From: Gemmata sp.
Lineage (GTDB): Bacteria > Planctomycetota > Planctomycetia > Gemmatales > Gemmataceae
Length of the DNA stretch: 64,000 nucleotides
NCBI GenBank assembly: GCA_025055115.1
Contig: JANWYJ010000040.1
Coordinates: 1 to 64,000 of the forward strand
Direction of reading: 5' to 3'
Positions 288-18,290 of the stretch are shown one piece after another. The notes beneath the pieces are model-generated. The model searched no databases. It was not told the DNA's origin and worked only from the letters and a program-made list of their open reading frames with translations. How positions within the stretch are numbered: position 1 is the stretch's first letter; the number at the start of each line of letters is the position of its first letter. Made by a program: the position numbers and the translations under genes.

Positions 288-3200
288 TTACTTCTGCAAT
301 TCTTTCCGCAGCGATTCCGCGGTGGTGATGACCATGGTTTTTTGATCTTCCGGCAAAGAATTTTCTGCCTTGGCCAAGCGGATGGCGGTTTCCAGTTCGG
401 GGAGGGCCGCCGACCGTTCCCCGGTGTGGGCCAAGGCGATGCCCAGGTACAGATGCATCCGTGGATCGTCCGGGTAACGCTTGGCGGCGACTGTGAAGAG
501 CGATTTCATTTCGGCATATCGTTCAGGTCTTTTCAGTTTGGCGTAAATCGTACCGATGGTGTCGAGAAAATCGGCGGGCAAGCGTTCAGGTCCGATCGGG
601 CGATCCGATCCTTGCGCTTTGCGAATCTCTTCCACCACCGTCAGAGCCGACTGTGGTTGATTTTTCACCTCGCACAAAATCCACGCGAGATTATTGCCCG
701 CGATCAAATCGCGCGGGAATTTCTTGAGAATCTCGTTGTAGATGGTGATGGCCTGATCCCAGTTTTTCCGTTCCATCGCAATATCGGCCAACAGCATCGC
801 GATGCGGATTTGATCGGGAAACAGCTTCATCGCTTCGCGAATCCGCACTTCGGCCTCATCGTAGGCTTTGGCGCGGAAAAAGCCGCTGGCGGCGGCCAGC
901 AGGGCATCGCGACGTGCTTCGTTCCGGAGCCGCTCGCTTTGCTCCGGAGGCAGTGGCGGTTTGACGTCGGCAATAAGCTTGTCGACTTGAGCCAGACGCT
1001 CGCGGACTAGCTCATCGGCCCGCTTGATGGCCTCAGCCTTCTGGCCATCCTCGACCAACAAACGAATCCATTCGCCCCGTGCGGCATTATCATTGGGTAA
1101 CCGTTCCGCCCACGTTTTCACCCACCGCAGCGCGTCGGCTTTCTTGTTGGCTTTGGTCCAACTTTCCACCAGGCGCGCATAGGCCGAGCTGTTATTGGGG
1201 GAACGTTCGATCACTCTCTCATAAACGGCCGCAGCGCCGGCCCAATCGCCTGTTGCGGCCAAGATGGCCGCTTCGAGAAACGGCAGACGCGGATCGTTGG
1301 GGCTGTCCTTGGCCGCCGCGGCATAGAATTCTTTGGCCCGTTCGAGGTTCACGGGGGGTAGCAGGGAAAGTTCGGCCACCAACAACATCAGGGTGGGGTT
1401 GTTGGGGTTGCTGGCCTGAGCGGTGATGGCTTCGCGTTTGGCCCGGTCGATGTCGCCGGCGAGCAAGCGGAATTGGGTTTTCACCACAGCGATTTCGGGG
1501 GCGGGAATGCCAGCTTTGGCCGCGACAGCTTCCCAACGATTGGCGGCCGCATACATGGTTTTACTGGTATCCCAGTTATCGTCGGGTGAACCGATATCGT
1601 CGATGAGGAAAGCCGCGTTGGCGGCGGCGAGGAACACTGCGGGATCGTTGGGGAATTCACTGGTCAGACGAATGGCCAGATCGCGGGCTTTGAGCGGTTC
1701 GGCCTGACCATAACGAGCCAATGCCCGCCGCAAGCCGGCCCGGGCAGTATCGCGAATGCGGGTCACTTCCAAAACGGAGGCAAACCCTTGGATCGCGGCC
1801 TCGTAGCGGCCTTCTGCAAAATCCAGGGCGGCTTGATAAAGACGGAAGAAATTCTGGTCTTCATAGCGTGCGGCAGCCTCTTTGAGCCGCTGCACGTACT
1901 GTTCTTTGGTGGTGGCCGCTTCGATCAAGGCCGCGTCAATGAGTGGTTCGGGGGGCTGGGCGATGAGAATTTCTTGGGCTTTCTCCCGATCCCCCGCGCG
2001 GAATAGTGCCACGGCCAGCAGACGTTCCACGGCCGGGTCGGGGCCGCCGGGGAAGTTGGCGGGGTCGCGGAGATAGTCCACGGCTTTTTCCGCTCGGTCG
2101 GTGCGGAGGTACCACGAAGCCAGGAACAACCGCGCCGATTTGTCGTTGGGGTAGTCGCGAAGGAACTTGCGGATGAGAGCGTCGGCGGCGGCAATGCCAT
2201 TGGCGTTGGGTTTTCCACCCGGTTCGGTTGGCAGGGCCAACAGGCGGCACCGTAAATTCAACACCTCCAGGCTGTCCGGATAATCGAGCGTAAGGGCTTC
2301 GACCCGGGCTTCGGCCTCCTTGCGGCGATTCGTGGCCATCATGTATTCGGCCAAAGCGATCCGCGCTGTGCGATCTTGCGCGCTGGGCGGTTTGAGCCGT
2401 TTGGCGGCTGTTTCCGCGGCCTCCTCGTAACCGGCCAGTAGTGTTGCGGGAATCGGTTTGCCGGGATTGGTGCGCAGATATTTGTTGGCGGCGTCGATCG
2501 CCGTGCGCAAGTTGGTGATGACCACATTGGCCGTAATCCCCGCGGTGCCGCCGAGGCGCTCTTCCGCCCACGCCTTGGCTTCGGCCGGCAACTCGGGATA
2601 TGCATAGCGGGCTTCCACGTCACGCCATGCCGCCAACGACGCTGGCCAATCAGCCAAGGCCATGTTCAACTGGGCTAGCACCACATTGGCACGGAAGCTC
2701 AAGTCGGGATGACCTTTCGCAGTCGCTACCGCCTGCAAGACTGCTTTGGCTTTCTCCAAACGCCCCTGATTTTCCGCCACTTGCCCCTCGATGAGCAAGG
2801 CCCACAACTGGGCCCGCTGGGATGGCGATTCTTTGAGTTTGGTCACATGAACGGTGAATTCCTCGGCTTTCGCGCCCAGGAGGAAGGCCATCCGCGCGAT
2901 TTCCACATGGAATTCATCGGTGACCGAGTGCGGGGCTTTCGCTTGTTCCGCCGCAGCGAGACCATCCGTCAGTTGCTTGTGGGCCTTGACGCGGAGTTCT
3001 TTGGCTCGGGTCGTGTCGTTGGCTGCGGCTGCTACTTCCGCCTCCGCTGCCAACAACCGGGCATAGGCCAACGCCAGCGTGGAGTTCTTCTTCACCGCTT
3101 CGGGGAGACGTTCGATCAGTTTGTCGATGGCGGCGGCGTAATCGTTCCATGCCACCAGGTCCGTCTTGAGCAGAAACGGTAGCGACTGTGCGACGAATTC

Positions 3201-4343
3201 CACACACACCGGCGCGAACTGACCCAGGTAAGCTTGCAGTTCCGCGTTATCCGCGATTTTGTTCGTGAAGTTCACAACCGCCTGGACCACCATCTTCATC
3301 GACCCGATGTCATTGGGTTTGATTCGGGCGATGGTGCTAGCGCGGTCGAAGGCGGCTTCGCAGACACTTTTCATCCCGTTGGCATCGGCGACACCGAAGT
3401 TGGTGAGTTTTTCACCGCGGCCTGCGACCTCGATCAGCCCAGTTTCGGGTGCCCAGAGCAGCTGATCAACGGCTTTTTCCGCGGCCGCGACGACCTCCGG
3501 CTTGAGTTTGCGCTCTTTGGCGGTGCGCAGTGGCCACATGAGGATGTCGATTTCCAGGCCGACCGTGCGCCAATAGGCCGCGCCCGATTGTTTGGCGGAC
3601 TGGAGGTATTCGCGGGCACGGTCCATACGCTCGGCGGAGCGGCGGTTGAGCGGCGTGGGGGTGAAGCCATCGTCGCCGGGTTGTTCGTATTCGTAGCGGG
3701 CCAAATAGTAGTAGGCGCGGGCATTTTGAGGTTCCAGTTCCGTCGCCCGGCGAAGATAGGGTTCGATGAAACGCCAATCGATGGGGTTATAGGCCAATTC
3801 GGTGCGGAGCAGTTCTTTGAGAATCTCTTTGGCCAGTGCTTGGTCCGAACTGAGTCGCTGCGCTGCAATGCGGAGGGCGGTGCGGGCTTGGGTGCGGGCC
3901 TCGGCATCGCGAATCGCGTTGAAATTGCGGTAGTGTTCGTTGTATTGCGGGTCGGGGATGGTTGGCAGCGGTTTGTCTTCCTCATAGCTTTTCGCGTAGT
4001 CGCGGTCACGGATAGCACGCGCCTTCACCCACATGAGGCGGCCTTGCAAATTCTGGGCTTGCTCAGCGGGAAGTTTGTTGCCATCGAGGAGGTTTTTGAG
4101 TTCATCCATCCCTTTGTCGCACAACAGTTGGGCTTCGTCGAAACGGGTGGCCGCTTCGCCCCATTTCTTTTGGTTGAAGGCCTCGGTGCCACGTGCGAAG
4201 GCGGTTTCCGCCGCTTGCAACCGATTCGCGGGGGCCGCCGGGACCACGAACGTGCGGTAGCCCAAATACCCAGCGCCGCCCAAACAGGCCAGCGTGAGTA
4301 TCCACAAAGTGACGCGATAGGTGGTCGTTTGTCGGAAGCTCAT
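288..4343 (-). CDS. Large membrane-anchored TPR-repeat protein, downstream of exosortase
   Basis: This 1351-residue protein has one N-terminal membrane helix (about residues 10-33, WILTLACLGGAGYLGYRTF) and then an almost wholly helical body of tetratricopeptide-like repeats. Typical repeat pieces are the stretches around ARAYYYLARYEYEQPG and AEVRIREAMKLFPDQIRIAM, with A-x-x-Y/L-E-x-A periodicity to the C terminus. The layout predicts a single-pass anchor with a very large extracytoplasmic scaffold. No catalytic motif is visible. It starts 47 bases after the exosortase stop on the same strand, so the two are probably co-transcribed, and a role in PEP-CTERM sorting or surface assembly is the natural inference. 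Planctomycete exosortases are often accompanied by TPR proteins, to my recollection. The ATG at 4343 is preceded only by a weak GAGTG. A 448-residue open frame on the opposite strand is a shadow of the GC-rich codon pattern. Confidence 0.85.
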   Translation of the reverse strand: MSFRQTTTYRVTLWILTLACLGGAGYLGYRTFVVPAAPANRLQAAETAFARGTEAFNQKKWGEAATRFDEAQLLCDKGMDELKNLLDGNKLPAEQAQNLQGRLMWVKARAIRDRDYAKSYEEDKPLPTIPDPQYNEHYRNFNAIRDAEARTQARTALRIAAQRLSSDQALAKEILKELLRTELAYNPIDWRFIEPYLRRATELEPQNARAYYYLARYEYEQPGDDGFTPTPLNRRSAERMDRAREYLQSAKQSGAAYWRTVGLEIDILMWPLRTAKERKLKPEVVAAAEKAVDQLLWAPETGLIEVAGRGEKLTNFGVADANGMKSVCEAAFDRASTIARIKPNDIGSMKMVVQAVVNFTNKIADNAELQAYLGQFAPVCVEFVAQSLPFLLKTDLVAWNDYAAAIDKLIERLPEAVKKNSTLALAYARLLAAEAEVAAAANDTTRAKELRVKAHKQLTDGLAAAEQAKAPHSVTDEFHVEIARMAFLLGAKAEEFTVHVTKLKESPSQRAQLWALLIEGQVAENQGRLEKAKAVLQAVATAKGHPDLSFRANVVLAQLNMALADWPASLAAWRDVEARYAYPELPAEAKAWAEERLGGTAGITANVVITNLRTAIDAANKYLRTNPGKPIPATLLAGYEEAAETAAKRLKPPSAQDRTARIALAEYMMATNRRKEAEARVEALTLDYPDSLEVLNLRCRLLALPTEPGGKPNANGIAAADALIRKFLRDYPNDKSARLFLASWYLRTDRAEKAVDYLRDPANFPGGPDPAVERLLAVALFRAGDREKAQEILIAQPPEPLIDAALIEAATTKEQYVQRLKEAAARYEDQNFFRLYQAALDFAEGRYEAAIQGFASVLEVTRIRDTARAGLRRALARYGQAEPLKARDLAIRLTSEFPNDPAVFLAAANAAFLIDDIGSPDDNWDTSKTMYAAANRWEAVAAKAGIPAPEIAVVKTQFRLLAGDIDRAKREAITAQASNPNNPTLMLLVAELSLLPPVNLERAKEFYAAAAKDSPNDPRLPFLEAAILAATGDWAGAAAVYERVIERSPNNSSAYARLVESWTKANKKADALRWVKTWAERLPNDNAARGEWIRLLVEDGQKAEAIKRADELVRERLAQVDKLIADVKPPLPPEQSERLRNEARRDALLAAASGFFRAKAYDEAEVRIREAMKLFPDQIRIAMLLADIAMERKNWDQAITIYNEILKKFPRDLIAGNNLAWILCEVKNQPQSALTVVEEIRKAQGSDRPIGPERLPADFLDTIGTIYAKLKRPERYAEMKSLFTVAAKRYPDDPRMHLYLGIALAHTGERSAALPELETAIRLAKAENSLPEDQKTMVITTAESLRKELQK

Positions 4344-4390
4344 AGGGGTTCACTCAAAGTGCCAATGAAATTTCCTGAAGTCGAGGATGG

Positions 4391-6178
4391 TCACTCCCGC
4401 GCTAGCGCAATCGGCAGCCGTTCGCAGCCGGTTTGTGTCTGCGGAGGCAGCACCCCTTGCTGTGCCGCTGCGTGCAGCTGCGGCAAAAGCTGTTGTTCGA
4501 CCGCAGCAATCGTCCGCGGATCATCGCTACCAAGCGAGACTTGGGCCGTGATACTTGGCGCGGTGATGCCGATCCGCTGATGCCATTGCTGCCAGCGCGT
4601 CAGCCCCGGTTGCGGTGCCGGTACCAGCGTGTAGTGCCAATAGTACACCACCGTGACGCGGCCGACACCCTTCTGGAAGCGGAAACGCTGCGCTTGCACT
4701 CCCTCGGGGCCGAGCGGCACCCGCCGGCGGAAACTGAGGTCTTCCGGCGAACCATTGACATCGCGAATGCAGATCTCGGGGTGGTGCTTGCGGTCTTCCC
4801 CAGCGCGGGAATACACCATGTACACATGGGCCAACTCGCCGTCGGCATTTTGGTAAACCCGCACCAAAAGATCATCCACGGGGAAGGGCAGCTTCTCGAC
4901 CAACTTCTCCCGGTAGCCGGTATTGTCCTTCCCGATCCATGCCGGTTCGTTCGTCTTGGGATCGATGATGGTCAGGGGCAGTGTGTCGAGCGGGCGAACA
5001 AGGGTGGGGTAACTGGCTTCCCCAGCGACCTGAAGATGTTCATACAGCGCCCACTGCAAGCCGATGCCCACGATCATCCCCAAAGTGGCCACGACCATGC
5101 CGCGCCGCGTTGAAGACGAGAAGCGGGCTTGACCCAGCGCAGACGGTGTGGGGATGGCAATGCCCGGGGCGACCGTTGCGCTCGTACCGCTCTCGTGCGG
5201 CCCTTGATCAGAATTGTGGGCAATATCGGGGGTGGTGGGAGATTCGGGTTCGTTCGTGATACGCCGCGGCGGGGGTAAGAGGCTCTCCAGGGCACGGTCG
5301 ATGAGGAAGAAGAGCACGATGCCGACCGGCAGGCTGAAGAGAATCGGGGCGTCGTGCAGAGTGCCACCGAGCCACTTCGTGCCGAAGTAAACCGCGGCGA
5401 CATTCATCAGCACCACCCGCAGCGTGTTGGCCACAATCGCCACCGGGACCGATGCCAACACCAACGCCACGCGGAACCACATCGGCCGGCCGAACAAGTG
5501 ACCCATCAACACCGCGAAGGCCAGAAAACACACGATCTGCCCCAATCCACTGCATTCTTCCGCCACCACCAGCGAGCTATCCACCCCGGCGATACGGATC
5601 GAATGCCCCACGCGATGGACCACAAAGAACAAACTCAGCACCGATTCACTCACCCGGCTCACGATATCTTGCAGCCAGATGGCGGCGTAACTCGTCCACT
5701 TCACCGGGGCCGGGAACATGAAGAACAAAAACACGAGCGGGAAGTTAAAGGCCGATGCCCACGCCCGACCGCCAGCGCTTGTCAATAAACCGCGGACGAC
5801 GCACACCAGCCCCAAATAGCTCAGTATCGGCCAGCGGAGGATACCCACCACCAATTGCAAGAACACGCCCAGGGTGATGCTGACCAATCCCCACACTGGT
5901 TCACCGCGCAGCGGTGGACCGACGCCACGCCGTCCGTAGCGGATGTGCAGAGCCAACGCGAGGCTGATGGGAATGACCAGATAGCCGTGCGAGTAGTTTT
6001 GGTCGCGACTCCACAGCGTCAGGAGCTGGCGGAAACTGTCGGCGAACAAACCGGCCACGGCCGCGATACCAGCGGCGAGAACAAGCCAATCCGTCCAGGG
6101 TGCGGCAGCGGGGGAAGGGATCGTGGCGGAGGTTGCGGCGGGCGAAGCGGAGCGACTCATGGCAATAGGGGCGGCCAT
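4391..6178 (-). CDS. Exosortase with C-terminal EpsI domain (planctomycete type)
   Basis: This 595-residue polytopic inner-membrane protein is the predicted transpeptidase that recognises and cleaves PEP-CTERM tails. The N-terminal half has about eight membrane helices and the exosortase/archaeosortase triad: Cys in EECSGLGQ (near residue 209), Arg in ANTLRVV (near 254) and His in GTLHDAP (near 275). After a linker and another membrane helix, the last 180 or so residues form an EpsI-like extracytoplasmic domain with the HHPEICI signature. An open frame extends upstream to 6325, but a rho-independent terminator on this strand at 6186-6229 lies inside that extension. The start is therefore ATG 6178 or the second ATG at 6160; neither has a strong ribosome-binding site. 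The next gene downstream is the giant TPR protein, and the gene upstream encodes a PEP-CTERM substrate. It may belong to the class called exosortase U, which I cannot verify here. Confidence 0.9.
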   Translation of the reverse strand: MAAPIAMSRSASPAATSATIPSPAAAPWTDWLVLAAGIAAVAGLFADSFRQLLTLWSRDQNYSHGYLVIPISLALALHIRYGRRGVGPPLRGEPVWGLVSITLGVFLQLVVGILRWPILSYLGLVCVVRGLLTSAGGRAWASAFNFPLVFLFFMFPAPVKWTSYAAIWLQDIVSRVSESVLSLFFVVHRVGHSIRIAGVDSSLVVAEECSGLGQIVCFLAFAVLMGHLFGRPMWFRVALVLASVPVAIVANTLRVVLMNVAAVYFGTKWLGGTLHDAPILFSLPVGIVLFFLIDRALESLLPPPRRITNEPESPTTPDIAHNSDQGPHESGTSATVAPGIAIPTPSALGQARFSSSTRRGMVVATLGMIVGIGLQWALYEHLQVAGEASYPTLVRPLDTLPLTIIDPKTNEPAWIGKDNTGYREKLVEKLPFPVDDLLVRVYQNADGELAHVYMVYSRAGEDRKHHPEICIRDVNGSPEDLSFRRRVPLGPEGVQAQRFRFQKGVGRVTVVYYWHYTLVPAPQPGLTRWQQWHQRIGITAPSITAQVSLGSDDPRTIAAVEQQLLPQLHAAAQQGVLPPQTQTGCERLPIALARE

Positions 6179-6185
6179 TGTCAGG

Positions 6186-6229
6186 GAACAAAAACGCCAG
6201 ACGGGCAGGAGGCGTCCTGCCCGTCTGGC
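6186..6229 (-). terminator. Rho-independent terminator after the PEP-CTERM gene
   Basis: A perfect 15-bp stem (6196-6210 with 6215-6229, loop of 4) is followed on the minus strand by GTTTTTGTT. It lies between the PEP-CTERM stop (6365) and the exosortase start. It should end the PEP-CTERM transcript, and it rules out the longer upstream exosortase start. Confidence 0.88.
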
Positions 6230-6364
6230 ATCCTGACTCGTATCAGGTGAATTGCAATGTAGCGGGTGAAGGTGAGTTATGCAACGGGGTTTGAGCCTTT
6301 GTGAACGAATTCCGCGGCGAGCCAACCAGGGACTGGTCAGAGCGCCGCGGCAGGCATGTGGGGT

Positions 6365-7048
6365 TCAGGCGGCGGTTTTCAGTTTCCGCCGAACGGCCCA
6401 GCCACCAAAAGCCCCCATCAGCCCCAGCACTGCCAACGTCGCCGGCTCAGGAACCGGATCACCCGGTCCGGGCTGGTTATCACGACTGTAGGTGAAGGTG
6501 AAGCTCGCACTCCCCGCCCCACCGGAGACAGTGCCAGGTGAACCAGGAGTAAATGTGAGTGGTTGCGAGCTACCCAAAAAATCGTAAATCGTCCCGATAG
6601 GCCCAAAGTCTATCGTGGTAAACGGTGATGTGATGCTTGTCAGAGTGGCTTGACCAGAGAAACTAACAACATTACTACCCAGATTGTTGGCTTGTGTGTT
6701 GCTAAGAGTGAACGTGGCAATTTTGCCTGCATCAGCACCCGTTCCGGTCACCGTGAACTGATTCGGAGCAGTACTCGTGATGACCACCGGTCCAGGATTG
6801 GTATTAAACCCCGCTACATTAATGTTCCATGTCGAGACAACATGGGGTGGAGAGATAAATGTCGAGGGATCTCCGTTATTTTGAATATAACTTGGGAGTA
6901 TACCCCCGGAGAATACGACCTGCTGTGGTGTGACTACGCTTGTACTCCCAAAGGTCACTTGGAAACTGTATACTGGTGCGGCGGTGGCGTTGCTCGCGAA
7001 GCCGAGGGCAACGACCGCGAAGAGGGCAACCGACGCGCTGCGAAACAT
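6365..7048 (-). CDS. PEP-CTERM sorting-domain protein
   Basis: This 227-residue exported protein has a signal peptide at about residues 1-23 (cleavage after SNATA). A beta-rich, Ser/Thr/Gly-rich body of about 175 residues follows. The C-terminal tag is a canonical PEP-CTERM signal: the VPEPAT box, a hydrophobic stretch (LAVLGLMGAFGGWAV) and the basic end RRKLK. The tag is known to be recognised by exosortases, and one is encoded directly downstream on the same strand, although a terminator separates the two. The body has no recognisable catalytic or binding motif. It is probably a surface or matrix protein. The base composition of the body (AT-richer, many ACT/AAC codons) differs from neighbouring genes, as is common for fast-evolving PEP-CTERM passengers. 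Confidence 0.92.
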   Translation of the reverse strand: MFRSASVALFAVVALGFASNATAAPVYSFQVTFGSTSVVTPQQVVFSGGILPSYIQNNGDPSTFISPPHVVSTWNINVAGFNTNPGPVVITSTAPNQFTVTGTGADAGKIATFTLSNTQANNLGSNVVSFSGQATLTSITSPFTTIDFGPIGTIYDFLGSSQPLTFTPGSPGTVSGGAGSASFTFTYSRDNQPGPGDPVPEPATLAVLGLMGAFGGWAVRRKLKTAA

Positions 7049-7328: not shown

Positions 7329-8225
7329 TCAGTCGGATTCACCGATCTTTCCGTAAGATCGCGGAAGTACGACAAAAGTTCCCGATTCAGTTTTTTTCAA
7401 TCGAGCCTCAATCTCGGCAACAGTCGGTACCTGAGCTGCCGCGGCGACCGGGTCAAACTTCTCCCGACGCGGATGTGTCGGTTTTTCTGACACTTGGGGT
7501 GGATTTTCCAAATAACCCAAGCCGATTTGGGCGGCTCTCAGGTTGGGGTCGAGGGATAAGGCCAAGCGGTAGCGGTCTTTGGCCTCCGCGATCTTCCCCT
7601 GGGTCGCGAGTACAAAGGCAATGTTGCAGTGGGCATCCGGTTCCCGAACGGCTTTGCAGAAGGATCGATAACCTTCGTCGTATTGGCCCATCTGCGCTTG
7701 GGCCAGCCCTAGGTTGATCCAGGCTTTTTTGTGCTGCGGGTCGATCTGCACGGCTTTCCGCAAGGCGTCTTCGGCTTTCGCCCAATCGCCGCGGCAGTAG
7801 TGGCTGTAGCCGTAGTCGGTGAGTAAATCCGCATCCTTGGGATACTCTTTGAGAAGCGCTTCATATTCCGTTGTAGAACGTGTGAAATCCCCGATTTTGT
7901 CGTACAACACGGCCAAGCGGCGCGCCGCGGGCCGCTGGAGTGCCGGGTCTGTGGCCCGGGCCTGCTCATACATGCGGATGGCGTCCTCGATCCGGCCGTC
8001 TTTCTCGAAAAATTGCGCTGTGCGGAAGCACACATGCGCTTTTTCTTTCGCCGGAAGTTCTACGGGGGCCGGAGCTTTTGCCGCGGCATCCGGGCCGACC
8101 AAAAGCGGTGGGGTTTCGGTCCCCGTCAGGCCGGTGGTCAGTGCTGGGAGCTTGTCAGTTCCCTTGCAGCCGATGGCAACCGCCCAAGACAACCCCACCA
8201 CGACCCACAGTTTCGACCGCTTCAT
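7329..8225 (-). CDS. tadD: TadD-like TPR lipoprotein of the Tad/Flp pilus locus
   Basis: The protein has 298 residues. ATG 8225 is chosen over an in-frame start at 8309 because it follows a GGGGGA/CGGAT ribosome-binding region and opens directly into a lipoprotein signal, MKRSKLWVV...AVAIGC, with Cys near residue 20 as the lipidation site. Residues 60-240 hold four or five TPR units, for example AIRMYEQARATDPALQRP and AWINLGLAQAQMGQYDEGYR. The tail is charged. TPR lipoproteins called TadD are standard in tad loci, where they help the secretin assemble. The position after the secretin and the Gly/Phe-rich lipoprotein on the same strand supports that role. Sequence alone would not distinguish it from other TPR lipoproteins. 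Confidence 0.78.
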   Translation of the reverse strand: MKRSKLWVVVGLSWAVAIGCKGTDKLPALTTGLTGTETPPLLVGPDAAAKAPAPVELPAKEKAHVCFRTAQFFEKDGRIEDAIRMYEQARATDPALQRPAARRLAVLYDKIGDFTRSTTEYEALLKEYPKDADLLTDYGYSHYCRGDWAKAEDALRKAVQIDPQHKKAWINLGLAQAQMGQYDEGYRSFCKAVREPDAHCNIAFVLATQGKIAEAKDRYRLALSLDPNLRAAQIGLGYLENPPQVSEKPTHPRREKFDPVAAAAQVPTVAEIEARLKKTESGTFVVLPRSYGKIGESD

Positions 8226-8428
8226 ATCCGTGTGTCCCCCTCCACCCCCGGCTTCTTGGCGGGTGGCCATTCCCGACACACTACCGGGGCGCCGTGCCGG
8301 CGATTGCATCGCCGTCCCCGCTTGGTCACCCCGATGTGTGTCGATCGTTCTCGCACGGGTTGCTTGGGGCTATCTAGCTCGATGGTCCGCACAAAGAAAG
8401 AGCAATTGGAGCCACTTTCTCGAGCGGA

Positions 8429-9100
8429 TCAGAAGCCAAAGCCCCCGATGAAGCCCCCGAAGCCACCGCCCAAGGCCCCGGCGAAGCCCCCAAAACCGGC
8501 GAAACCACCGAAACCGAAACCGCCCAAATTGCCAAAGCCACCCAGATTGCCCAGGAATCCCCCCCCCAGAATCAACCGAGGATAAATAACTACGGCTTCT
8601 TCGCCAAACAAACCTTCGGCGCGTGGACGGCCCAGAACCACCCGCTGCGGGGCATCGGTAATTCCGGCTTCCACCAACTGATTGATGACAGTCTGCAGAC
8701 GGATGGTGCTCAGCAGGGGGAACTTCGGCTCGGGCTGAACCACCACCAGATGGGGACTGGTCGGCAATCGGCCAGCAATCCGAGCGAGGTGGTCGGCCCC
8801 GTATTGATTGAGCGTGGCCTGCCCATCGACCCATTCGTTGTAATAGATGACGAAGTCATCCGCTTCGGCCTTGGCCGCTTGCCGTTCCAGGTAGGCGTTG
8901 GTGAAGGTACCCAAGGGTCGCGGAATAGCCCCTTGTTCGATATCGGAACAGTTGTCGATATGCAGGTTGTGGCAGCAATCGTGTTTTTTCCACTTTTCGG
9001 CTTTGTAGGCGGTGTGGCAACCCACGACGACCGCCAGCGTCGCCAAACCCAAGCAGGCCCGCATCAGCAGCCATTGCGAATAATGGAGGAGCCGGTCCAT
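8429..9100 (-). CDS. Lipoprotein with Gly/Phe-rich C-terminal tail; possible CpaD/RcpB counterpart
   Basis: The protein has 223 residues. A GAGGA site 7 bases before ATG 9100 supports the start. The N terminus is a long signal with a lipobox (LATLAVVVGC, Cys near residue 28). The middle (residues 75-165) contains DDFVIYYNEWVDG and GADHLARIAGRLP, which recalls peptidoglycan-associated or OmpA-like lipoproteins. Residues 175-223 are a low-complexity tail of GGFG and GFGGFAG repeats. The gene lies 102 bases downstream of the secretin, where many tad loci encode the pilotin-like lipoprotein CpaD/RcpB. Replacement of CpaD by this protein is inference from position and lipidation; I see no direct CpaD motif. 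Confidence 0.6.
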   Translation of the reverse strand: MDRLLHYSQWLLMRACLGLATLAVVVGCHTAYKAEKWKKHDCCHNLHIDNCSDIEQGAIPRPLGTFTNAYLERQAAKAEADDFVIYYNEWVDGQATLNQYGADHLARIAGRLPTSPHLVVVQPEPKFPLLSTIRLQTVINQLVEAGITDAPQRVVLGRPRAEGLFGEEAVVIYPRLILGGGFLGNLGGFGNLGGFGFGGFAGFGGFAGALGGGFGGFIGGFGF

Positions 9101-9202: not shown

Positions 9203-11422
9203 TTACTTTTTGCTCGCGGGCAGCACGTCGAGCCAACTGTTGTCCTTTTTGCCCAACGGGAAGGTATCGTCGAGAGCGGGCGATTCGACATGCCCGCTGG
9301 GGCCGACGATGAACACGTCTTCACATCGGCGGTAACGCAGCATGCGGTGAATGTCGGTCCGCACAGCACTGCGATAGTCGTAAGACCGCCGGCTTTCTAA
9401 ACGGCCCGCCAGGTAGAATTCCATATCGCCGGGTTCGAAGATGTCGGCACCGGGCAGAGGGCTGAGTTCATGGGGTTCCAAGGGGTGAACCAATTCGGGC
9501 GTCACCAGGACGATCAATTCTTGCTCGCCCGCGCTGGTTTGTTGGAAGGAGGCCAGACGGCCGAGGAAGGGCAGGTCGCCGAAGAACGGCACCCGGCTGC
9601 CCGTGGCCCCGATGTTGTTCTGGATCAGCCCAGCGACGGCCATGGTTTGCCCTTCACGCAGTTCGACCGTCGTCGAGAAGGTCCGTGTGTTCAAACCGGG
9701 AATGTTGGCTCCACCAATGATGGCCGTTTGGGCATTGTCGCGCGTGCTGACGGTCGCATTGAGGGTGAGGCGAATCCGATCGCGGTCGGTAATGATCGGG
9801 GTGAAGGCCAGTTGGACACCGAAGGGAACGAACTGTACACCCTGCAGCCCCCCTGTACCACCACCGAGGAACCCGCCGGCCCCGCCTCCGAAGGCCCCAA
9901 ACCCACCAATGACCGGCACGGGGAATTGCCCCCCGGCCAAAAAGATCGCTGTCCGGCCGTTGAGAGCCGTCAAATTCGGCTCGGCGAGCGAGCGCGCGTA
10001 ATTGAGGGTTCGTAAGGCGTTGATGGCGATGGGAATTTGGCCGTTGTCGAGGTTCACTGGCAGGTTCACCAGCTGTTGACCCAACCCTTGCCCCCCGACC
10101 CCTCCTGCACCACCAATACCGGCGCCTTGCCCCAATTGCCCCGTTTGTTGGGCGAACACCGTTGTACCTTGGTTGTTGATAATGCTGAAGTTGAGGCCGA
10201 TGCTCCGCGCAGCCGCCCGGTTCACCTCAGCGACAACCACCCGCAACATCACCTGTTGCTCACCGGGAATGCGCAGATTGTTGATGACATTCTCACTCCC
10301 TTCGACAAGGTAATCACCGACCCCGGGAGTCAGATCGGGGCGGAGGGGGTCTTGCGGCCGGCCGGTCGGCCCGATGCTGGTCAAGGGCGGCCGGGTGGCA
10401 GCTCCGGTTTCGCCCGGAGCATTGGCGCGGGCGATGCGCAGAATCTGCGTGGCTTCAGCGATGTCGTGTGCTTGCCCACTGACCATCAACTTGTCGCCTA
10501 CCAGCGTGAGGCGGACACGACTATTCGGAAACGCCTTATTGATCTCAATTTCCAACACTTTGTAGATGGCTTCGAGCCGCTCCTTGGCCTCGGGATCGGG
10601 AATGACCCGGACCAGATAGCTGATGATCTTTTCTTCCCCCTTCTTGTCGGGGTCATCGAACCACAGATTCAGAACGGTGGTGCCCGCTTTGGCCCCGATG
10701 ATGGTCATTTGCTGGCCCTGGGGTTCCAGTAGGCGGAACGAAGCGATCGTCGGGTCAGCGATTTGGGTGCGCGTGGGAGTGGCGTTGAGCAGCACCACAC
10801 GCGCGCGACCTTCGACCAAATCCAGCGTGTTGCGGGGATCAATCACTCCTTTGACGTACTTGGCGTATTCTTTGAGTTCTTCTTCGGTGGGAATCGGGGT
10901 TAGACCCAAGCCGCCACTGCCGAGGCGCGGCAGGCGAATCTTGTCGTCGCGGAAGGGGGGGAACTGTTTGGGTTGTGGCAGCGGTTGCGGAGAGGCCTCT
11001 TTGCCACCCGGCTCTTTGGGCTGCGCGGCCGGCTGAAAAGCCGCCGGCGAAACGCCTGGATCGACCGTCACGGGGGGCAATTCCAATGGAACATAAGCCG
11101 GTGGTGGCGCGGGAACCGCCGGCATTTGGGCCGAAACTGCCTGGAGAGGGTAAGTCGGCACTGCCGGGATCAGGACCGGCGGCATGTGCGGTTCGGCCAT
11201 ACCGGGAGTCGCCACACGCGGTGACGGACGGGTTCGAGATTCTTCGATGACTGGAGACAGCGGTCCGGAACCCGGCGGGCGGCCTGCTTGAGCCAGTGAC
11301 TCCCGGGGTTGAGCCAGCGTGACCATTCCAGCCGTGAGGGTGAGAATCCCCAGCGCCCACGACCATGGCGTTCGCCAGCCGCCCGGCAACGCCCCGCGCT
11401 TCGAGTCACTGCTCAAGGACAT
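9203..11422 (-). CDS. cpaC: Tad/Flp pilus secretin (CpaC/RcpA family)
   Basis: This 739-residue outer-membrane secretin has a GAGGAG ribosome-binding site 8 bases before the ATG and a signal sequence (about residues 18-45). A Pro-rich linker of about 120 residues follows. Next come the secretin N-terminal domain typical of CpaC/RcpA (DLVEGRARVVLLNATPTRTQ through GTTVLNLWF), a BON-like domain (VRLTLVGDKLMVSGQAHDI) and the secretin core. The core begins near VMLRVVVAEVNRAAARSIGL and includes the gate segment rich in Gly (GGFGAFGGGAGGFLGGG) and the final VPFFGDLPFLGRLASF motif of secretins. Homologues form the gated channel through which the Flp pilus exits. It is the first gene of the minus arm and is divergent from the pilins. 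Confidence 0.93.
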   Translation of the reverse strand: MSLSSDSKRGALPGGWRTPWSWALGILTLTAGMVTLAQPRESLAQAGRPPGSGPLSPVIEESRTRPSPRVATPGMAEPHMPPVLIPAVPTYPLQAVSAQMPAVPAPPPAYVPLELPPVTVDPGVSPAAFQPAAQPKEPGGKEASPQPLPQPKQFPPFRDDKIRLPRLGSGGLGLTPIPTEEELKEYAKYVKGVIDPRNTLDLVEGRARVVLLNATPTRTQIADPTIASFRLLEPQGQQMTIIGAKAGTTVLNLWFDDPDKKGEEKIISYLVRVIPDPEAKERLEAIYKVLEIEINKAFPNSRVRLTLVGDKLMVSGQAHDIAEATQILRIARANAPGETGAATRPPLTSIGPTGRPQDPLRPDLTPGVGDYLVEGSENVINNLRIPGEQQVMLRVVVAEVNRAAARSIGLNFSIINNQGTTVFAQQTGQLGQGAGIGGAGGVGGQGLGQQLVNLPVNLDNGQIPIAINALRTLNYARSLAEPNLTALNGRTAIFLAGGQFPVPVIGGFGAFGGGAGGFLGGGTGGLQGVQFVPFGVQLAFTPIITDRDRIRLTLNATVSTRDNAQTAIIGGANIPGLNTRTFSTTVELREGQTMAVAGLIQNNIGATGSRVPFFGDLPFLGRLASFQQTSAGEQELIVLVTPELVHPLEPHELSPLPGADIFEPGDMEFYLAGRLESRRSYDYRSAVRTDIHRMLRYRRCEDVFIVGPSGHVESPALDDTFPLGKKDNSWLDVLPASKK

Positions 11423-12347
11423 GGCGATTCCTCCTCAAAATCGAACGTTTCGTCCGACCGATACGTCGCGGCGAGCACCACCGTGCAACCGGCCGATGGC
11501 CACTGTGGCTCGCGGACGAATTCCCCCCGCGAAATGAACCTTGGCAGTCTTATCGGCACATTCCGAACAATCGTTGAATTTTTCCTAGGCGGCGTGAAAG
11601 TTATGACCGCGAAAAGCCGTAAATGAGGTGGACCGCACAAACGGCGTGCTCGCGCAGCGCAACCTCAAGCGCCGCAACAAGCGAACACGAACGCATGGAG
11701 CGAAAAAACCGCGTGTGTCGAAAATCGGCACAGGGCGCGGAAGACAGAAAGGAACGAAAGTAGCTGAAAGCTTGTGAAAGTTAATGTCTCAGTGAAATTC
11801 ATGTGAGACAATACTTGCAGAAAATATCGAATTTTTCTCTTGAAGCGGTAAGAGGAGCGGGTTAAATTGCCCCGCAGAGTTTCAAAATAACGGCAGGGAT
11901 GACAGCCAATAAATCTGAAACGCGGCTTATTTCCGGCAGGAAATAAGATTTCTGAAAAAACGAAAAAAATCGGGAACTCAAAAAAGTTCCACCGCGACCA
12001 AAAAGCGTTAAAACTGTAACAACCTGCCAAGCCCCTCCTAACGGCTGGCGACGAACTTTGAGCAAGCAACCTTGACGCGGCATCGAGTTCGGAGCAAGCA
12101 CTCGCCCTCCGGTCTCAACGCCCAAAACCTAGAACACACAACTTCCGGACGCAAACCGGGAAACGCAAAAAAACAATCCGTCACGGAAACCAGGCGCCCG
12201 ACATGGTTTCCATGACGGGTGGTTAGGGAATCCCTAGTGGGCCACGCTGGGGATACGAAACTGTGGAGTCGCCCAACCTTGTCAGAGTCACGATGTGTGA
12301 ATCGGGACGGGACACTCCCAGCTTCGCAATCTTCGGAGGATCGCTCG
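11423..12347. other. Gene-free divergent region between the two arms of the tad locus
   Basis: These 925 bases separate the secretin (minus) from the first pilin (plus). No frame here shows protein-like composition, and the interior (11780-12020) is clearly AT-richer than the rest of the window. The region must carry the promoters of both arms. A 15-bp inverted repeat lies at 12178-12218 and a shorter one (TAGGGA/TCCCTA) at 12224-12236. I see no convincing -35/-10 pair, and no known riboswitch could be recognised. Confidence 0.6.
12168..12218 (-). terminator. Terminator-like hairpin upstream of the pilins (minus orientation)
   Basis: The arms 12178-12192 and 12204-12218 pair over 15 positions with one mismatch and an 11-base loop. 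On the minus strand the stem is followed closely by a run of seven T. No minus-strand gene lies upstream of it, so it could end an unannotated small RNA or leader, or protect the secretin promoter from readthrough. It could instead act as a regulatory structure in the pilin leader. Confidence 0.4.
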
Positions 12348-12662
12348 ATGTTTTCGAAGTTGTGGAATGATGAGGCTGGTAACGTCGCGATTGAATATCT
12401 CTTTCTGGCCTCGATTGTCGGCATTGGATTAGTCGTGGGTTTCAGCAACCTCGCCAGCGCTCTGAACGTGGAATACACGGAACTGGGCCGGGCCATCGTC
12501 ACCCTCGATCAAAGCTACAACTATGTGGCCGCCTCGGGTTGCGCGGGTAGCCACGGTGGCGCCAACGTGACCGAATCTGCCGGTGTACTCACCTACGGCG
12601 AAACCGCGACCGTTGCCCCGGTTGTCACCAGCAACACCCTCAACATCAACAGCTGCCCGTGA
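12348..12662 (+). CDS. flp: Flp-type major pilin, copy 1
   Basis: This prepilin has 104 residues. ATG 12348 follows GGAGGA by 7 bases and is preferred over an in-frame start at 12219 because it places the class motif at the N terminus. The sequence MFSKLWNDEAG|NVAIEYLFL shows the G-x4-E-Y processing site of Flp prepilins, cleaved after Gly, followed by a hydrophobic helix to about residue 40. The mature part is longer than a classical 50-80 residue Flp pilin. It ends in an approximately 60-residue domain with two Cys (ASGCAG and NSCP) that could form a disulfide. It is about 90 percent identical to the next pilin (10 differences in 104 by eye). The gene opens the plus arm of the tad locus. 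Confidence 0.92.
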   Translation: MFSKLWNDEAGNVAIEYLFLASIVGIGLVVGFSNLASALNVEYTELGRAIVTLDQSYNYVAASGCAGSHGGANVTESAGVLTYGETATVAPVVTSNTLNINSCP

Positions 12663-12671
12663 TGACAATGA

Positions 12672-12698
12672 CCCCAGCCAGCTATAGGGCGGCTGGGG
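12672..12698 (+). other. Short hairpin after pilin copy 1, without a T-run
   Basis: CCCCAGCC (12672-12679) and GGCTGGGG (12691-12698) form an 8-bp stem with an 11-base loop just after the stop of the first pilin. No T-tract follows, so it may be a partial attenuator or an mRNA 3'-end stabiliser rather than a full terminator. This would let some transcripts run on into pilin copy 2. Confidence 0.4.
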
Positions 12699-12759
12699 AG
12701 AACCGCAGGGCGGCCTGGGAGAAGCCAAAAACACTGGCCATCGACAGCAAAACACTCGT

Positions 12760-12796
12760 GAATCTGAGTCTCCGACAAAGCGTATCACTCAGATTC
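12760..12796. repeat. 10-bp inverted repeat in the pilin1-pilin2 spacer
   Basis: GAATCTGAGT (12760-12769) and ACTCAGATTC (12787-12796) are perfect reverse complements separated by 17 bases. The element lies 120 bases before pilin copy 2. It could be an operator or an RNA structure. No T-run follows. Confidence 0.4.
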
Positions 12797-12916
12797 GTGT
12801 CCCGTATCCCAGACAGACTGGGTGTGTGAGTTGGTCGAGTCGCCCACCTTGTAGATCCGTGCTGTGCGGGTCGGGGGGTTATCCTCACCACACTCACAAT
12901 CTTCGGAGGTAAGTTC

Positions 12917-13231
12917 ATGTTCTCCAAGTTCTACAATGACGAAGCCGGTAACGTCGCGATTGAGTACCTGTTCCTGGCCACGATCGTGGGCATCGGACTG
13001 GTGGTTGGTTTCAGCAACCTCGCCAGCGCTCTGAACGTGGAATACACGGAACTGGGCCTGGCCATCGTCACCCTCGATCAGTCCTACAACTATGTGGCCG
13101 CCTCGGGTTGCGCGGGTAGCCACGGTGGCGCCAACGTGACCGAAGTCTCTGGCGTGCTCACCTACGGCGAACCCGCGACCGTTGCCCCCGTTGTCAGCAC
13201 CAACACCCTCCACATCAACAGCTGCCCGTGA
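12917..13231 (+). CDS. flp: Flp-type major pilin, copy 2
   Basis: This 104-residue prepilin has the same layout as copy 1: MFSKFYNDEAG|NVAIEYLFL with the G-x4-E-Y cleavage site, one hydrophobic helix and a C-terminal domain with two Cys. A ribosome-binding site (CGGAGG) lies 8 bases upstream. The leader shares GTCGCCCACCTTGT and CACAATCTTCGGAGG-like segments with the leader of copy 1, so the duplication included the 5' untranslated region. Differences cluster at the N-terminal LW/FY pair and in the C-terminal domain. Unlike copy 1, it is followed by a canonical terminator. The two copies may be co-assembled or serve different conditions. Confidence 0.92.
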   Translation: MFSKFYNDEAGNVAIEYLFLATIVGIGLVVGFSNLASALNVEYTELGLAIVTLDQSYNYVAASGCAGSHGGANVTEVSGVLTYGEPATVAPVVSTNTLHINSCP

Positions 13232-13250
13232 TGACAATGGCCTGAAGGGA

Positions 13251-13285
13251 ATCGGGCTCCGGACGTGCCGGAGCCCGATTTCTTT
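13251..13285 (+). terminator. Rho-independent terminator after the pilin pair
   Basis: A perfect 12-bp GC-rich stem (ATCGGGCTCCGG at 13251-13262 with 13268-13279, loop ACGTG) is followed by TTCTTT. It should end most pilin transcripts. The assembly genes downstream would then be expressed at a lower level by readthrough or from their own promoter. Confidence 0.88.
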
Positions 13286-13308
13286 ATCAATATCCGCGTT
13301 CTCTCGAG

Positions 13309-13941
13309 ATGGCTCCTGTGTCGCGTGAGTTCTTCCCCGACCCGATCGTGGGATGGGTGTACTGCACCTGTATCGGGCTACTGACGGGTGTTGCCGCCTA
13401 TATCGACACCCAAACCGCCAAAATTCCGAACCGGCTGAACTTCCTCATCCTCGGTACCGGCCTGATCGCCAACATCATTCGCAGTGGATGGATGGGCAGC
13501 CTCGACAAACCGCTGTGGCTGTTCGAGACCGGTTCAATCTGGTGGGGCATGATCGATGGCTTGATCTTCGCGACGCTGGGCTTCCTCGTGGCCTTTGTGG
13601 GTATGTTCGCGTTTTGGCTGTTTGGCCTGTGCGGCGGGGGTGACGTGAAACTGCTCGCGGCTGTGGGGGGATGGATCGGCTTGAGCGTCCATCTGCTCTT
13701 TGTCTGGCTGATGTCGATTGTGGCCTTGTTCCTCTGGACCCTCTTGCGCATCCTGACGCGAGGGTTTTCACCCAAAACGTTGAAGAAAACGGTCCACTCC
13801 CTCAGCCAACAAAGCGGTGCCAACGCCAACCCACGGAACCCCGTCCGCGTGACGTATTCGTTACCCATTGCCGTAGCGACCATCCTGGTGCTCCTGTGGG
13901 TGCATCGCTATGAGCTGTTGCTGGTCGCACCGCCTCAATAG
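13309..13941 (+). CDS. cpaA: Prepilin peptidase, A24 family (CpaA/TadV)
   Basis: This 210-residue inner-membrane aspartic protease has about six membrane helices. Both catalytic Asp contexts are present: YIDTQTAKIPNRLN near residue 30 and the GxGD-type motif GGGDVKLLA near residue 107. It lacks the N-terminal cysteine/methylase domain of PilD, as expected for the short CpaA/TadV form dedicated to Flp prepilins. Its location after the two pilins and ahead of TadE and CpaB fits the substrate assignment. The ribosome-binding site before ATG 13309 is weak. Confidence 0.9.
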   Translation: MAPVSREFFPDPIVGWVYCTCIGLLTGVAAYIDTQTAKIPNRLNFLILGTGLIANIIRSGWMGSLDKPLWLFETGSIWWGMIDGLIFATLGFLVAFVGMFAFWLFGLCGGGDVKLLAAVGGWIGLSVHLLFVWLMSIVALFLWTLLRILTRGFSPKTLKKTVHSLSQQSGANANPRNPVRVTYSLPIAVATILVLLWVHRYELLLVAPPQ

Positions 13942-13973
13942 GCACTGTACCCGATCCCGATGAGGTTCCGCCC

Positions 13974-14462
13974 ATGGTATTTCGCCCCCATTCACGGAAG
14001 CGCTGGCATATTGGCTCCCGAGGTGTGGTCAGTGTCGAGTTACTGTTCACACTACCGCTCGTGGTCTTAGCGGGGTTTTTGATGGTCGGGATTGCGGATT
14101 TGGTGATTGCTGAACAGAAGCTGGACGAAGCCGCCGGCCGAGCCGGGCGGATTGTCGCGATGGGCGGTTCCGAGCAGGATGTGCGGAACATGCTCACCGC
14201 GTTCCTGGGGCCGGAACGTGCCCAACACACCCAGGTGACTCTGACGCCCCTGAAGCGGCCCGAGATTTTGCCGTCCGCGGATTCTGCCGCGATGGAAATG
14301 GAGGCCGCGAATTTTGCTGACGCCCCACCAGTTGGAGCCAAACATCGCGAGTTGATCGAAGTTCGTATTGAACTCGAAGTCCGTCATGCTACCGTGACAG
14401 CACTCGTGCCGCTGGGACGCACCGAGAAGCTGATCGGCCGTACCGTGGTGCCGCGGCACTGA
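13974..14462 (+). CDS. tadE: TadE-like pseudopilin
   Basis: This 162-residue protein has a short basic N terminus, then SRGVVSVELLFTLPLVVLAGF, a TadE-type motif with a Glu in a hydrophobic helix that resembles a prepilin signal (cleavage after Gly in RG|VVSVE). The remainder is an extracytoplasmic alpha/beta domain. TadE and TadF/G are minor pseudopilins processed by TadV and required for pilus assembly. A GAGG site precedes the ATG by 8 bases, and the gene follows cpaA by 32 bases in the same orientation. Confidence 0.83.
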   Translation: MVFRPHSRKRWHIGSRGVVSVELLFTLPLVVLAGFLMVGIADLVIAEQKLDEAAGRAGRIVAMGGSEQDVRNMLTAFLGPERAQHTQVTLTPLKRPEILPSADSAAMEMEAANFADAPPVGAKHRELIEVRIELEVRHATVTALVPLGRTEKLIGRTVVPRH

Positions 14463-14559
14463 GCCGAACGATCGCCCGATATTGGCCGTGCGAATCCGTT
14501 CGATCCGTACAACTACCCACCCATTGGGGTGGAGGCAGGACGCCAGGCCGAATTGGACG

Positions 14560-14582
14560 ATGAACCGACACCGTCGGTTCAT
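14560..14582 (+). other. Perfect 10-bp hairpin ahead of cpaB
   Basis: ATGAACCGAC (14560-14569) and GTCGGTTCAT (14573-14582) pair perfectly around a 3-base loop in the tadE-cpaB spacer, 32 bases before the cpaB start. No T-run follows. It may be an mRNA processing or translational control element. Confidence 0.45.
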
Positions 14583-14614
14583 AGATCGCGACCCCCTCAC
14601 TCAGGTTCACGCCC

Positions 14615-15763
14615 ATGCGCGCAAGTACCGTCTTCATTCTGGCACTGGTTCTTTTGGTCGGTTTTGTGGCTTTGGCGGTGGCCAAGGCGGCGGGTTTGTT
14701 CAACCCCACACCGCCACCGCCCCCCGCCCCCGAGCGGCCCCCCATCAAAGCTCTCTTCTCCAAAACCAATCTCTTCGAGAAGATCACCATCACCGCCGAT
14801 CAAGTGTACGTTCGCGATTTGACGGCGGCGGAAGAAGCAGCCCTCAAAAGCCGCTTCGGCGACAACTGGCAATCGAAACTCATGCCGCCCTTGGTCACCG
14901 CCGCCCACCTGCGGACGCCACGGCAAAACATCCTCGCCGACCAACCGCTGTTCCGCGATCAGTTTGAAGATGTCAATCTGCCGGAACCGATCAGCCTGCA
15001 ACTCGAACCCAACACCCGGGCGGTCAACGTGAAGGTGGACAAAGACAAAGCGGTGGGCGGAGTTCTCCGCGTCGGGGAGTATGTTGATGTCTTCCTGACG
15101 GCCAAAGTCGGTATCGGCAATGAGGAGGAGCTGCGCACCGCGTGCATCGCCCGGGGCTGCAAGATTGTCATGAAACGCAATGTGATGTGGACCCTCATGG
15201 CCGGTGACCCCGACGATAAACCCCTGCACTTCACCTTGCAAGCCAACCCCTACCGGGCAGCACTCATCGCGTACGCGCAGCAAAATGGGCAAATCAGCCT
15301 TCTGCCCGGTTCGCCCCCTCTGCGGATCGGCAGTAGTTGGTCCGATCCCAGCAGCCCCGAATACGCGATGGAAGATCAACGGATCGACGAAATCAACCGC
15401 GGCACCCGCGTGGTGGGTACCGAAGACCTGGTGCGGATCTTCCAGATTCCGCCGGCGCCGCTGCCGCCCCCGCCGCCGCTGCGGATTCAACACCTCTCTG
15501 GGGTCAGCGATGCTGGCTACACCTACTTCTACCCCACGGGCACCAATGGCTACTCCAATGGCACCAATGGCCGCGCACCCTCAGCGCCGCCGCCTCCGGT
15601 CCAGCCTGCCGGTGGTCCTCAAAGCCGCCGCACACCTCCGGCGAACGCTCCCTCGGCCACACAACCGGTGAGCTATACCTTCCGCCTGCCCAACGCCAGC
15701 GATAGCGAATGCAAAACGTGTGGTAAGAATAAACAACCGGATTATCCCGTGATCCGGAACTGA
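14615..15763 (+). CDS. cpaB: Flp pilus assembly protein CpaB (RcpC)
   Basis: This 382-residue protein has one N-terminal membrane helix (FILALVLLVGFVALAVAKAAG), a Pro-rich linker and a CpaB/RcpC core. The core includes the SAF-like region around LRTPRQNILADQPLFRDQF and ISLQLEPNTRAVNVKVDKD, then GGVLRVGEYVDVFLT. CpaB proteins sit in the periplasm, contact the secretin and are needed for pilus biogenesis. The C-terminal 100 residues are Pro/Gly/Asn-rich and end in a CKTCGK pair of cysteines, which is not usual for the family and may bind a metal or form a disulfide. The context is tadE upstream and tadG downstream. Confidence 0.88.
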   Translation: MRASTVFILALVLLVGFVALAVAKAAGLFNPTPPPPPAPERPPIKALFSKTNLFEKITITADQVYVRDLTAAEEAALKSRFGDNWQSKLMPPLVTAAHLRTPRQNILADQPLFRDQFEDVNLPEPISLQLEPNTRAVNVKVDKDKAVGGVLRVGEYVDVFLTAKVGIGNEEELRTACIARGCKIVMKRNVMWTLMAGDPDDKPLHFTLQANPYRAALIAYAQQNGQISLLPGSPPLRIGSSWSDPSSPEYAMEDQRIDEINRGTRVVGTEDLVRIFQIPPAPLPPPPPLRIQHLSGVSDAGYTYFYPTGTNGYSNGTNGRAPSAPPPPVQPAGGPQSRRTPPANAPSATQPVSYTFRLPNASDSECKTCGKNKQPDYPVIRN

Positions 15764-15850
15764 GTCAGCCACCTGCCAGGCGGCCGGACCACTCTCCGGC
15801 CGCCTCCTCCGATCGGGCGGACAACGGCTTTTTCCTTGTGAGCATCTCCC

Positions 15851-17050
15851 ATGCGCTATTCGCCCTCACCACGCACCGGCGCGATCAGCCTGATCACTCT
15901 GATCGCCATTCCGGTGTTGCTCTTGCTCGCGGGCCTGGTCATCTATGTGGCTTCGCTGCGGGATTCCAAGATCGAAGTGCAAAACGCGGCGGATGCGGCC
16001 GCTCTGGCCGCCGGATACGCCCTCGCCAGCGACGATTGGCTCACCCTGGATACCGACCGAGCCATCGCCCGCCTCGAACAAGCCCGCGCGGCCGCGGCGG
16101 CCGTGGCCGCGGTCCATTTTTCCTTCGGTGAACCCCTCCGCTTCGATCCCAATCGGGACCATCAACCCGATGGGGACATCGTTTTCGGCCACCTCGATCG
16201 GCCCTTAGGCCGGTTCCAGCCGGCCGGTGCCCATCCGCGGGAATGGGTGGGGGATCAAATCAACGCGGTACGCCTGACGCTGAGTCGTTCACCCCTGAAA
16301 GCGCCCTTGGGTGGGCGGTCGTCGTCCGAGCCGGTCCGCAGTCGGGCGACGGCCATGCTGGATTGGCACGTCATTGGCCTGGCCCCCTTGCGGGACGAGG
16401 CCTGCCCGCTGGTGCCCATCGCATTATTCACCGATGAAGCCGAGACGGCTGAGTTCGGATGGCGTTTCGCCTGCCAAAATGGCCGGGACGAATGGCGGTT
16501 CGATCCGATCGCACAGCAGTTTGTCCCTGGCCGCGATGGTATTCGTGAGGTCGAAGTGGTGATCGGCACGCCGGTTTGGGGAGCTTTGACCGTTCCGGCG
16601 GTATTTTTGCAACTGGGCGCTGAATCGGCTGAGGTGACACTGAAACAAATTCGCGCTGGTGTGAACCGGGAACATTTGGCGAAATGGGGTGGCGAATTGT
16701 CGTTGGGCATCCATAATACAGTGAGCGTTCCGGGCAGCGGGGAATGCCCACCATCGTCGGACCCGAATCGTTCCCGGCTCGATGACGCCCTGCGGCTGGC
16801 CGCACGCAGTGGGCCGCGCATCTGGCCGCTGTGTGTGGGTGTGCGTGAGGATGATGGTTCCTTCCTCATCGGCGGCTGGGCGGGGGCGCGGATTGTGACT
16901 GTGGATGCACTTGAAGGGGGAGGAATACGCTTGCTCCTTCAACCGGCGGTGGTGACTCATCCCGCGATTGTCGCCGATCCAGGCCATACCCCGCCGCCAG
17001 CTTATTGGCGCGGAAATCGTACGGTCTGCGCGGTCCGGCTGGCCGAGTGA
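15851..17050 (+). CDS. tadG: TadG-like pilus assembly protein
   Basis: This 399-residue protein begins with GAISLITLIAIPVLLLLAGL and continues KIEVQNAADAAALAAGYAL. This is the signature N-terminal region of TadG and related Flp assembly proteins: one membrane helix followed by the QNAADAAALA segment. The rest is a large extracytoplasmic region without a clear von Willebrand domain, so it is a short or divergent TadG. It follows cpaB by 87 bases and precedes the TadZ-like gene by 32 bases. Confidence 0.8.
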   Translation: MRYSPSPRTGAISLITLIAIPVLLLLAGLVIYVASLRDSKIEVQNAADAAALAAGYALASDDWLTLDTDRAIARLEQARAAAAAVAAVHFSFGEPLRFDPNRDHQPDGDIVFGHLDRPLGRFQPAGAHPREWVGDQINAVRLTLSRSPLKAPLGGRSSSEPVRSRATAMLDWHVIGLAPLRDEACPLVPIALFTDEAETAEFGWRFACQNGRDEWRFDPIAQQFVPGRDGIREVEVVIGTPVWGALTVPAVFLQLGAESAEVTLKQIRAGVNREHLAKWGGELSLGIHNTVSVPGSGECPPSSDPNRSRLDDALRLAARSGPRIWPLCVGVREDDGSFLIGGWAGARIVTVDALEGGGIRLLLQPAVVTHPAIVADPGHTPPPAYWRGNRTVCAVRLAE

Positions 17051-17082
17051 CGAAGGTGTCGCGTTCGGAGCGGTGAAAAGCT

Positions 17083-18204: not shown

Positions 18205-18290
18205 AAAGAACGTTGTAGAATTGATATGTGATGTGATGGAACCCGGCAGGGACGCTCAGACCGGCACCGCAAGGAGCCTCAGCGTAGACC

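Follow-up and report, generated by a model that had tools for sequence, protein, structure and literature searches.

In a 64,000-nucleotide stretch of Gemmata sp. DNA (the window, part of contig C77; the genome measures 4.93 Mb and encodes three exosortases in all), we identified an exosortase carrying a C-terminal EpsI-like domain, flanked by a PEP-CTERM gene and a gene for a giant tetratricopeptide repeat (TPR) protein. On balance, we take these genes to belong to a dedicated PEP-CTERM sorting module of Planctomycetia, in which the TPR protein is a near-obligate partner. The basis for this module is a defined gene set, its co-inheritance across genomes, invariant residues in the enzyme and an N-terminal hydrophobic segment in the TPR protein. 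The acceptors and helpers of exosortases are largely unknown, and the module names an enzyme, a near-obligate TPR partner and an adjacent cargo that can be tested together. It also suggests that PEP-CTERM sorting is unexpectedly linked to Tad pili, in a phylum whose exosortases have hardly been tested.

The PEP-CTERM gene (6365–7048, 227 aa, the likely cargo), the exosortase-EpsI fusion (4391–6178) and the TPR gene (288–4343, ATG start, 1351 aa) follow one another in that order on the minus strand, with 47 bp between the last two. This confirms the gene order and strand given in an earlier sequence-only reading, which had described a sortase fusion, a likely substrate and a giant single-pass TPR protein as adjacent. 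That reading was right about adjacency and overlooked two features, a neighbouring Tad pilus cluster and a terminator-like hairpin that separates the exosortase from the cargo gene (6196–6229, minus strand). The hairpin, a perfect 15-bp stem with a 4-base loop followed by GTTTTT, argues against one simple three-gene operon. The exosortase ORF (4391–6325, minus strand) opens at TTG and would encode 644 aa, but this start is unlikely because of the perfect 15-bp hairpin and T5 run at 6229–6196; translation probably begins at one of the in-frame ATGs at 6178 and 6160, giving a protein of about 589–595 aa. The hairpin was absent from the output of a consensus scan, and its core occurs once within the window. 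Among eight intergenic regions inspected, four, from three genera, contain a hairpin built on a common core, ACGGGCAGGA...TCCTGCCCGT; besides the window, the cargo-exosortase intergenic regions concerned are those of loci L038 (one mismatch), L039 and L027.

The window enzyme belongs to the Exosortase (EpsH) family, matching PF09721 at 142 bits (cut-off 25.7). C203, R248 and H269 (589-aa numbering), which we take to be the catalytic residues, are invariant in a 14-row alignment. In the attached domain, D456, R457, H459, H460, P461 and C464 are likewise invariant across 14 aligned sequences, forming a D-R-x-H-H-P-E-x-C signature that reads H-N-P in genome G640. The EpsI model TIGR02914 scores 17.2 bits on the window domain (cut-off 42.8) and is passed by the fusion of a relative, L077, at 43.3. 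In G536, the EpsI-like part is a separate gene; in G640, an EpsI motif occurs in its own frame, located between the genes for the exosortase and the TPR protein; and a pattern search of the separate EpsI-like gene in G668 did not find the signature. The predicted structure of the fusion has a pLDDT of 80. A PDB sequence search with the fusion profile returned only two matches (E 0.3 and 0.41), and Foldseek with the model returned nothing at E<=0.001. A resemblance of the EpsI part to Mog1/PsbP-like folds, obtained with VIA-align (Z about 7, rmsd 4–6), was too weak to use.

The TPR protein matches TPR_19 at 105 bits (cut-off 25). Apart from a single hydrophobic segment at the N-terminus, it contains little that is hydrophobic, and neither it nor 13 of the 14 other TPR proteins aligned contains a lipobox pattern; the single match among the 15 comes from an alignment in which at least two N-termini are truncated or mis-started. 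With one hydrophobic segment and no lipobox, the window protein looks like a membrane-anchored periplasmic solenoid.

The sequence-only reading had staked its proposal on the TPR gene being conserved beside exosortases in relatives, and a survey of TPR-gene neighbourhoods showed that it is conserved with this type of exosortase. A profile search detected strong orthologues of the fusion in 12 of 95 genomes of the family, and the TPR protein (E<=1e-20) in 13, namely the same 12 and G033, where the match is half-length and the fusion is lacking. In all 12, the TPR gene lies directly downstream of the fusion on the same strand, although in G034 it is broken by a contig end. Extending to the order, the fusion is present in 17 of 102 genomes, and a TPR search of the 95 family genomes and the five added fusion genomes found an orthologue in every one of the 17, adjacent in 15 and elsewhere in the genome in two; among the five beyond the family, it is adjacent in G486, G491 and G492 and elsewhere in G487 and G490. 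The pairing recurs in all five further genomes outside the order (469–954 bits), with the TPR gene adjacent in G536, G702 and G640 and unlinked in G668 and G646, whose exosortase loci lie on short contigs.

Broader searches bound this distribution. With the fusion profile, 397 genomes of the class were searched and 13 loci fetched, and class and phylum searches with this profile scored three candidates per genome. Three of the 13 loci, those of G702, G536 and G640, hold a cargo-like gene, the exosortase and the TPR gene together; in the eight loci of family f6 and in G668 and G646, the TPR gene does not lie beside the exosortase. Of 28 genomes searched for the TPR protein, five gave the matches of 469–954 bits, 13 matched over the C-terminal part only (75–141 bits) and 10 had no match at E<=1e-20. 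A phylum search of 392 genomes with the TPR profile found only the genome's own protein; because only two candidates were scored per genome, this result argues only weakly for absence. A pattern scan covering 84,980 species yielded 16 loci, comprising 13 of the same orthologues and three ordinary exosortases. In genomes of families f6 and f103, ORFs mostly of 1470–1650 aa align to the TPR profile over its C-terminal part only (105–141 bits) and lie far from the exosortase wherever both share one contig, possibly representing a separate giant TPR family. Separately, a family of polytopic membrane proteins that resemble GT-C glycosyltransferases is encoded close to the TPR gene in three genomes, and in a fourth it neighbours the Tad secretin (L029:3665-5413, L032:12433-14178, L052:15880-17652 and L057:9279-10970; the L029 member has no Pfam match).

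Phylogenies agree with joint inheritance. In a tree of 39 exosortase domains, built without the fragments from G034 and G036, all 20 from TPR-bearing genomes separate from the 19 others, although the branches bounding their group have moderate support (0.81 and 0.59). Exosortase and TPR trees have 10 of 13 splits in common. Such agreement is what vertically inherited genes would give, and the two genes could be neighbours through inherited order only, with no joint function. We find this very improbable, since the two genes stay together across genera and families even as most of the surrounding genes change, and since all four genomes with an unlinked copy (G487, G490, G668 and G646, of 22) still retain the TPR gene. 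This persistence without linkage points to functional coupling. The physical "sorting complex" suggested by the sequence-only reading, for which the TPR protein would have to bind the enzyme or its cargo, is an inference.

The window cargo scores above the cut-offs of both PEP-CTERM models, PF07589 (27.1; cut-off 20.7) and TIGR02595 (23.2; cut-off 16). It consists of a signal helix, a middle that is beta-rich in a poor structure model (pLDDT 53), a C-terminal PEP motif, a hydrophobic helix and RRK. A PEP-CTERM-like gene adjoins the fusion at 11 of 15 assessable loci of the order, a count that left out G073 and G036 at contig ends. Eight of these pass a curated cut-off (G000, G023, G039, G038, G043, G044, G034 and G072) and three fall below it (G027, 20.1 of 20.7; G487, 16.7 of 20.7; G486, 13.2 of 16), and no PEP-CTERM gene lies beside the enzyme in G006, G490, G491 or G492. 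Outside the order, the cargo-like neighbours of all three adjacent pairs are under the cut-off: G702 reaches 15.9 of 16 and G536 14.7 of 16, and the G640 protein matches neither PEP-CTERM model. The G536 neighbour (L075:10316-14092) is 1258 aa long, contains choice-of-anchor D domains and ends in a PEP-CTERM match that is sub-threshold. Trimmed to their mature domains, the window pair of cargo proteins and the main cargo family show no detectable relation (hhalign probability below 1%); their comparison gave the best hhalign value of the set, yet at noise level. The idea of a fast-evolving cargo was dropped: G000 and G023 share 48% identity in this protein versus 80–96% in its neighbours, but G039 and G038 share 89% versus 90–97%.

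A genome-wide count of PEP-CTERM proteins, a check put forward with the sequence-only reading, gave nine matches over the cut-off among 15 listed, alongside the three exosortases. The specificity of the window exosortase for its neighbour is unproven, because the PEP motif of the cargo resembles those of the genome's other PEP-CTERM proteins and two further exosortases are present.

Upstream of the cargo gene lies a Tad (Flp) pilus cluster. On the minus strand, it includes a TPR protein that we assign to the TadD type from its TPRs and position (7329–8309), a conserved secretin-module protein with a Gly/Phe-rich C-terminus and no Pfam match (8429–9100), and a secretin of the RcpA/CpaC type with a T2SS-T3SS_pil_N domain (9203–11422). 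On the plus strand, two ORFs (12219–12662 and 12917–13231, the second with no Pfam match) are presumably Flp pilins, judging by their motif; they are similar and in tandem, and the relative L022 likewise has two. Further plus-strand genes (13309–21649) encode Peptidase_A24, TadE-like, RcpC/CpaB and TadG-like proteins and, within the same interval, a 373-aa ORF, a T2SSE protein (TadA) and two T2SSF proteins (TadB and TadC). The interval 9203–21649 thus contains the TadA ATPase, TadB/TadC, RcpA secretin, RcpC and prepilin peptidase that define a Tad cluster, with the TadE-like gene slightly under its cut-off (22.7 versus 22.9 bits).

This neighbourhood raises the possibility that the module acts for the Tad pilus: the exosortase and TPR protein would mature or deliver a PEP-CTERM protein with a decorating, capping or anchoring role on the pilus or its outer-membrane secretin. 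Tad genes or the secretin module adjoin the exosortase module in seven of 22 genomes. Three arrangements occur: secretin-cl3-TadD-cargo-Xrt-TPR (G000, G023 and G072, and G006 without the cargo), a convergent arrangement (G027 and G034) and cargo-Xrt-TPR-CpaA..TadABC (G640). Moreover, a strong Tad secretin, defined by a 296-bit threshold set after the data were seen, is found in 12 of 12 family fusion genomes versus 30 of 95 family genomes overall and in 16 of 17 order fusion genomes (four of the five beyond the family), with hypergeometric values of 1.6e-7 and 5e-8, respectively, that both ignore relatedness; this comparison covers the genomes of the order. Binomial estimates, which assumed a 24-kb span in 5 Mb and 10 PEP genes among 4500, were rough and not relied on. 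Several observations weaken this possibility. In the stretches read, some of which end at contig ends, 11 of the 17 order genomes have no Tad genes next to the fusion; a strong secretin occurs without the fusion in 18 family genomes and in G488 and G489; and G492 has the fusion with a secretin match of merely 152 bits. In addition, the exosortase, TPR and secretin trees share five to six of eight splits and are mostly congruent, so shared descent could explain their overlap. We therefore regard a module in the service of the pilus as a tentative, somewhat unlikely reading, and the Tad link as suggestive but unproven. A stricter version, that of a Tad-dedicated exosortase that with the TPR protein processes an exchangeable PEP-CTERM protein and hands it over to the pilus or to the Tad machinery of the outer membrane, we hold to be unlikely; if true, a Gram-negative bacterium would be using sortase-like processing to build or decorate a pilus. 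Among the literature matches listed, with subscription papers outside the scope, no title linked exosortases or PEP-CTERM with Tad or Flp pili, and none described such a link when exosortase or PEP-CTERM was combined with tetratricopeptide and pilus.

For the dedicated sorting module, the export route, cleavage, acceptor and TPR binding role can be proposed by analogy with the exosortase and PrsT literature. A signal peptide would direct export of the cargo, whose C-terminal helix would keep it in the inner membrane. Using the Cys, Arg and His residues, the exosortase would then cut the cargo at the PEP motif and pass it to an acceptor, assisted in the periplasm by the attached EpsI domain. 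The membrane-anchored TPR solenoid would most likely capture, orient or hand on the cargo, as proposed for PrsT. In many members, the cells that use the module's output probably build a Tad pilus as well.

One of the closest known counterparts is the XrtA/PrsT system. Descriptions of PrsT, a TPR lipoprotein found in exosortase systems, go back to 2006 (PMC1569441), so the view that the TPR gene implies more than a lone transpeptidase is reasonable but would apply beyond this window too. Planctomycete exosortases received limited coverage in the literature searched (PMC7293339; PMC12078418, as a reference only). In Aquincola, prsT is required for flocs and is preceded by the PEP-CTERM gene pepA, with a stem-loop separating the two genes (PMC9850573). 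The window similarly places a PEP-CTERM gene near a large TPR gene with a hairpin after the PEP-CTERM gene, and both systems include an exosortase and EpsI, in the window as an EpsI-like domain. PrsT (TIGR02917) is also the top NCBIfam match of the window TPR protein, at 102.6 bits; the top match of the G039 cargo is floc PepA (19.8 bits, under the cut-off of 80), and the TPR homologue of G033 adjoins a Poly_export gene. The locus could thus be an ordinary exopolysaccharide-linked PEP-CTERM system whose PrsT-type protein has merely diverged in sequence. We consider this doubtful, though a serious contender: the PrsT match falls well short of its 312.2-bit cut-off, the lipobox is missing as described above, a Tad cluster rather than exopolysaccharide genes stands beside the module, and the VanZ-like and Wzz/CbiA-type neighbours seen at the genome's other two exosortase loci are not found here. 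Unlike PrsT, the window protein is longer and apparently membrane-anchored rather than a lipoprotein, and its gene directly follows the exosortase.

Named exosortase subfamilies fit no better. XrtW (NF038142) and XrtD (TIGR04152) are the best-scoring subfamily models, at 140 of 425 and 118 of 400 bits, followed by XrtA at 114 of 208, and the relatives tested are also far under the XrtW and XrtD cut-offs; in the window protein, the XrtW match runs on beyond the exosortase domain, as matches in relatives do. Within the same class, family f6 loci pair an exosortase with what we take to be a GDP-mannose-dehydratase-like gene, several followed by an EpsI-like gene, but unlike the window enzyme these exosortases fall on another tree branch and lack a full-length TPR orthologue. 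The TPR protein is best read as a PrsT-like variant under the PrsT cut-off, accompanied by an exosortase under every named Xrt cut-off. Together, these comparisons make the planctomycete module a variant of the PEP-CTERM/TPR (PepA-PrsT) pairs already known in Proteobacteria.
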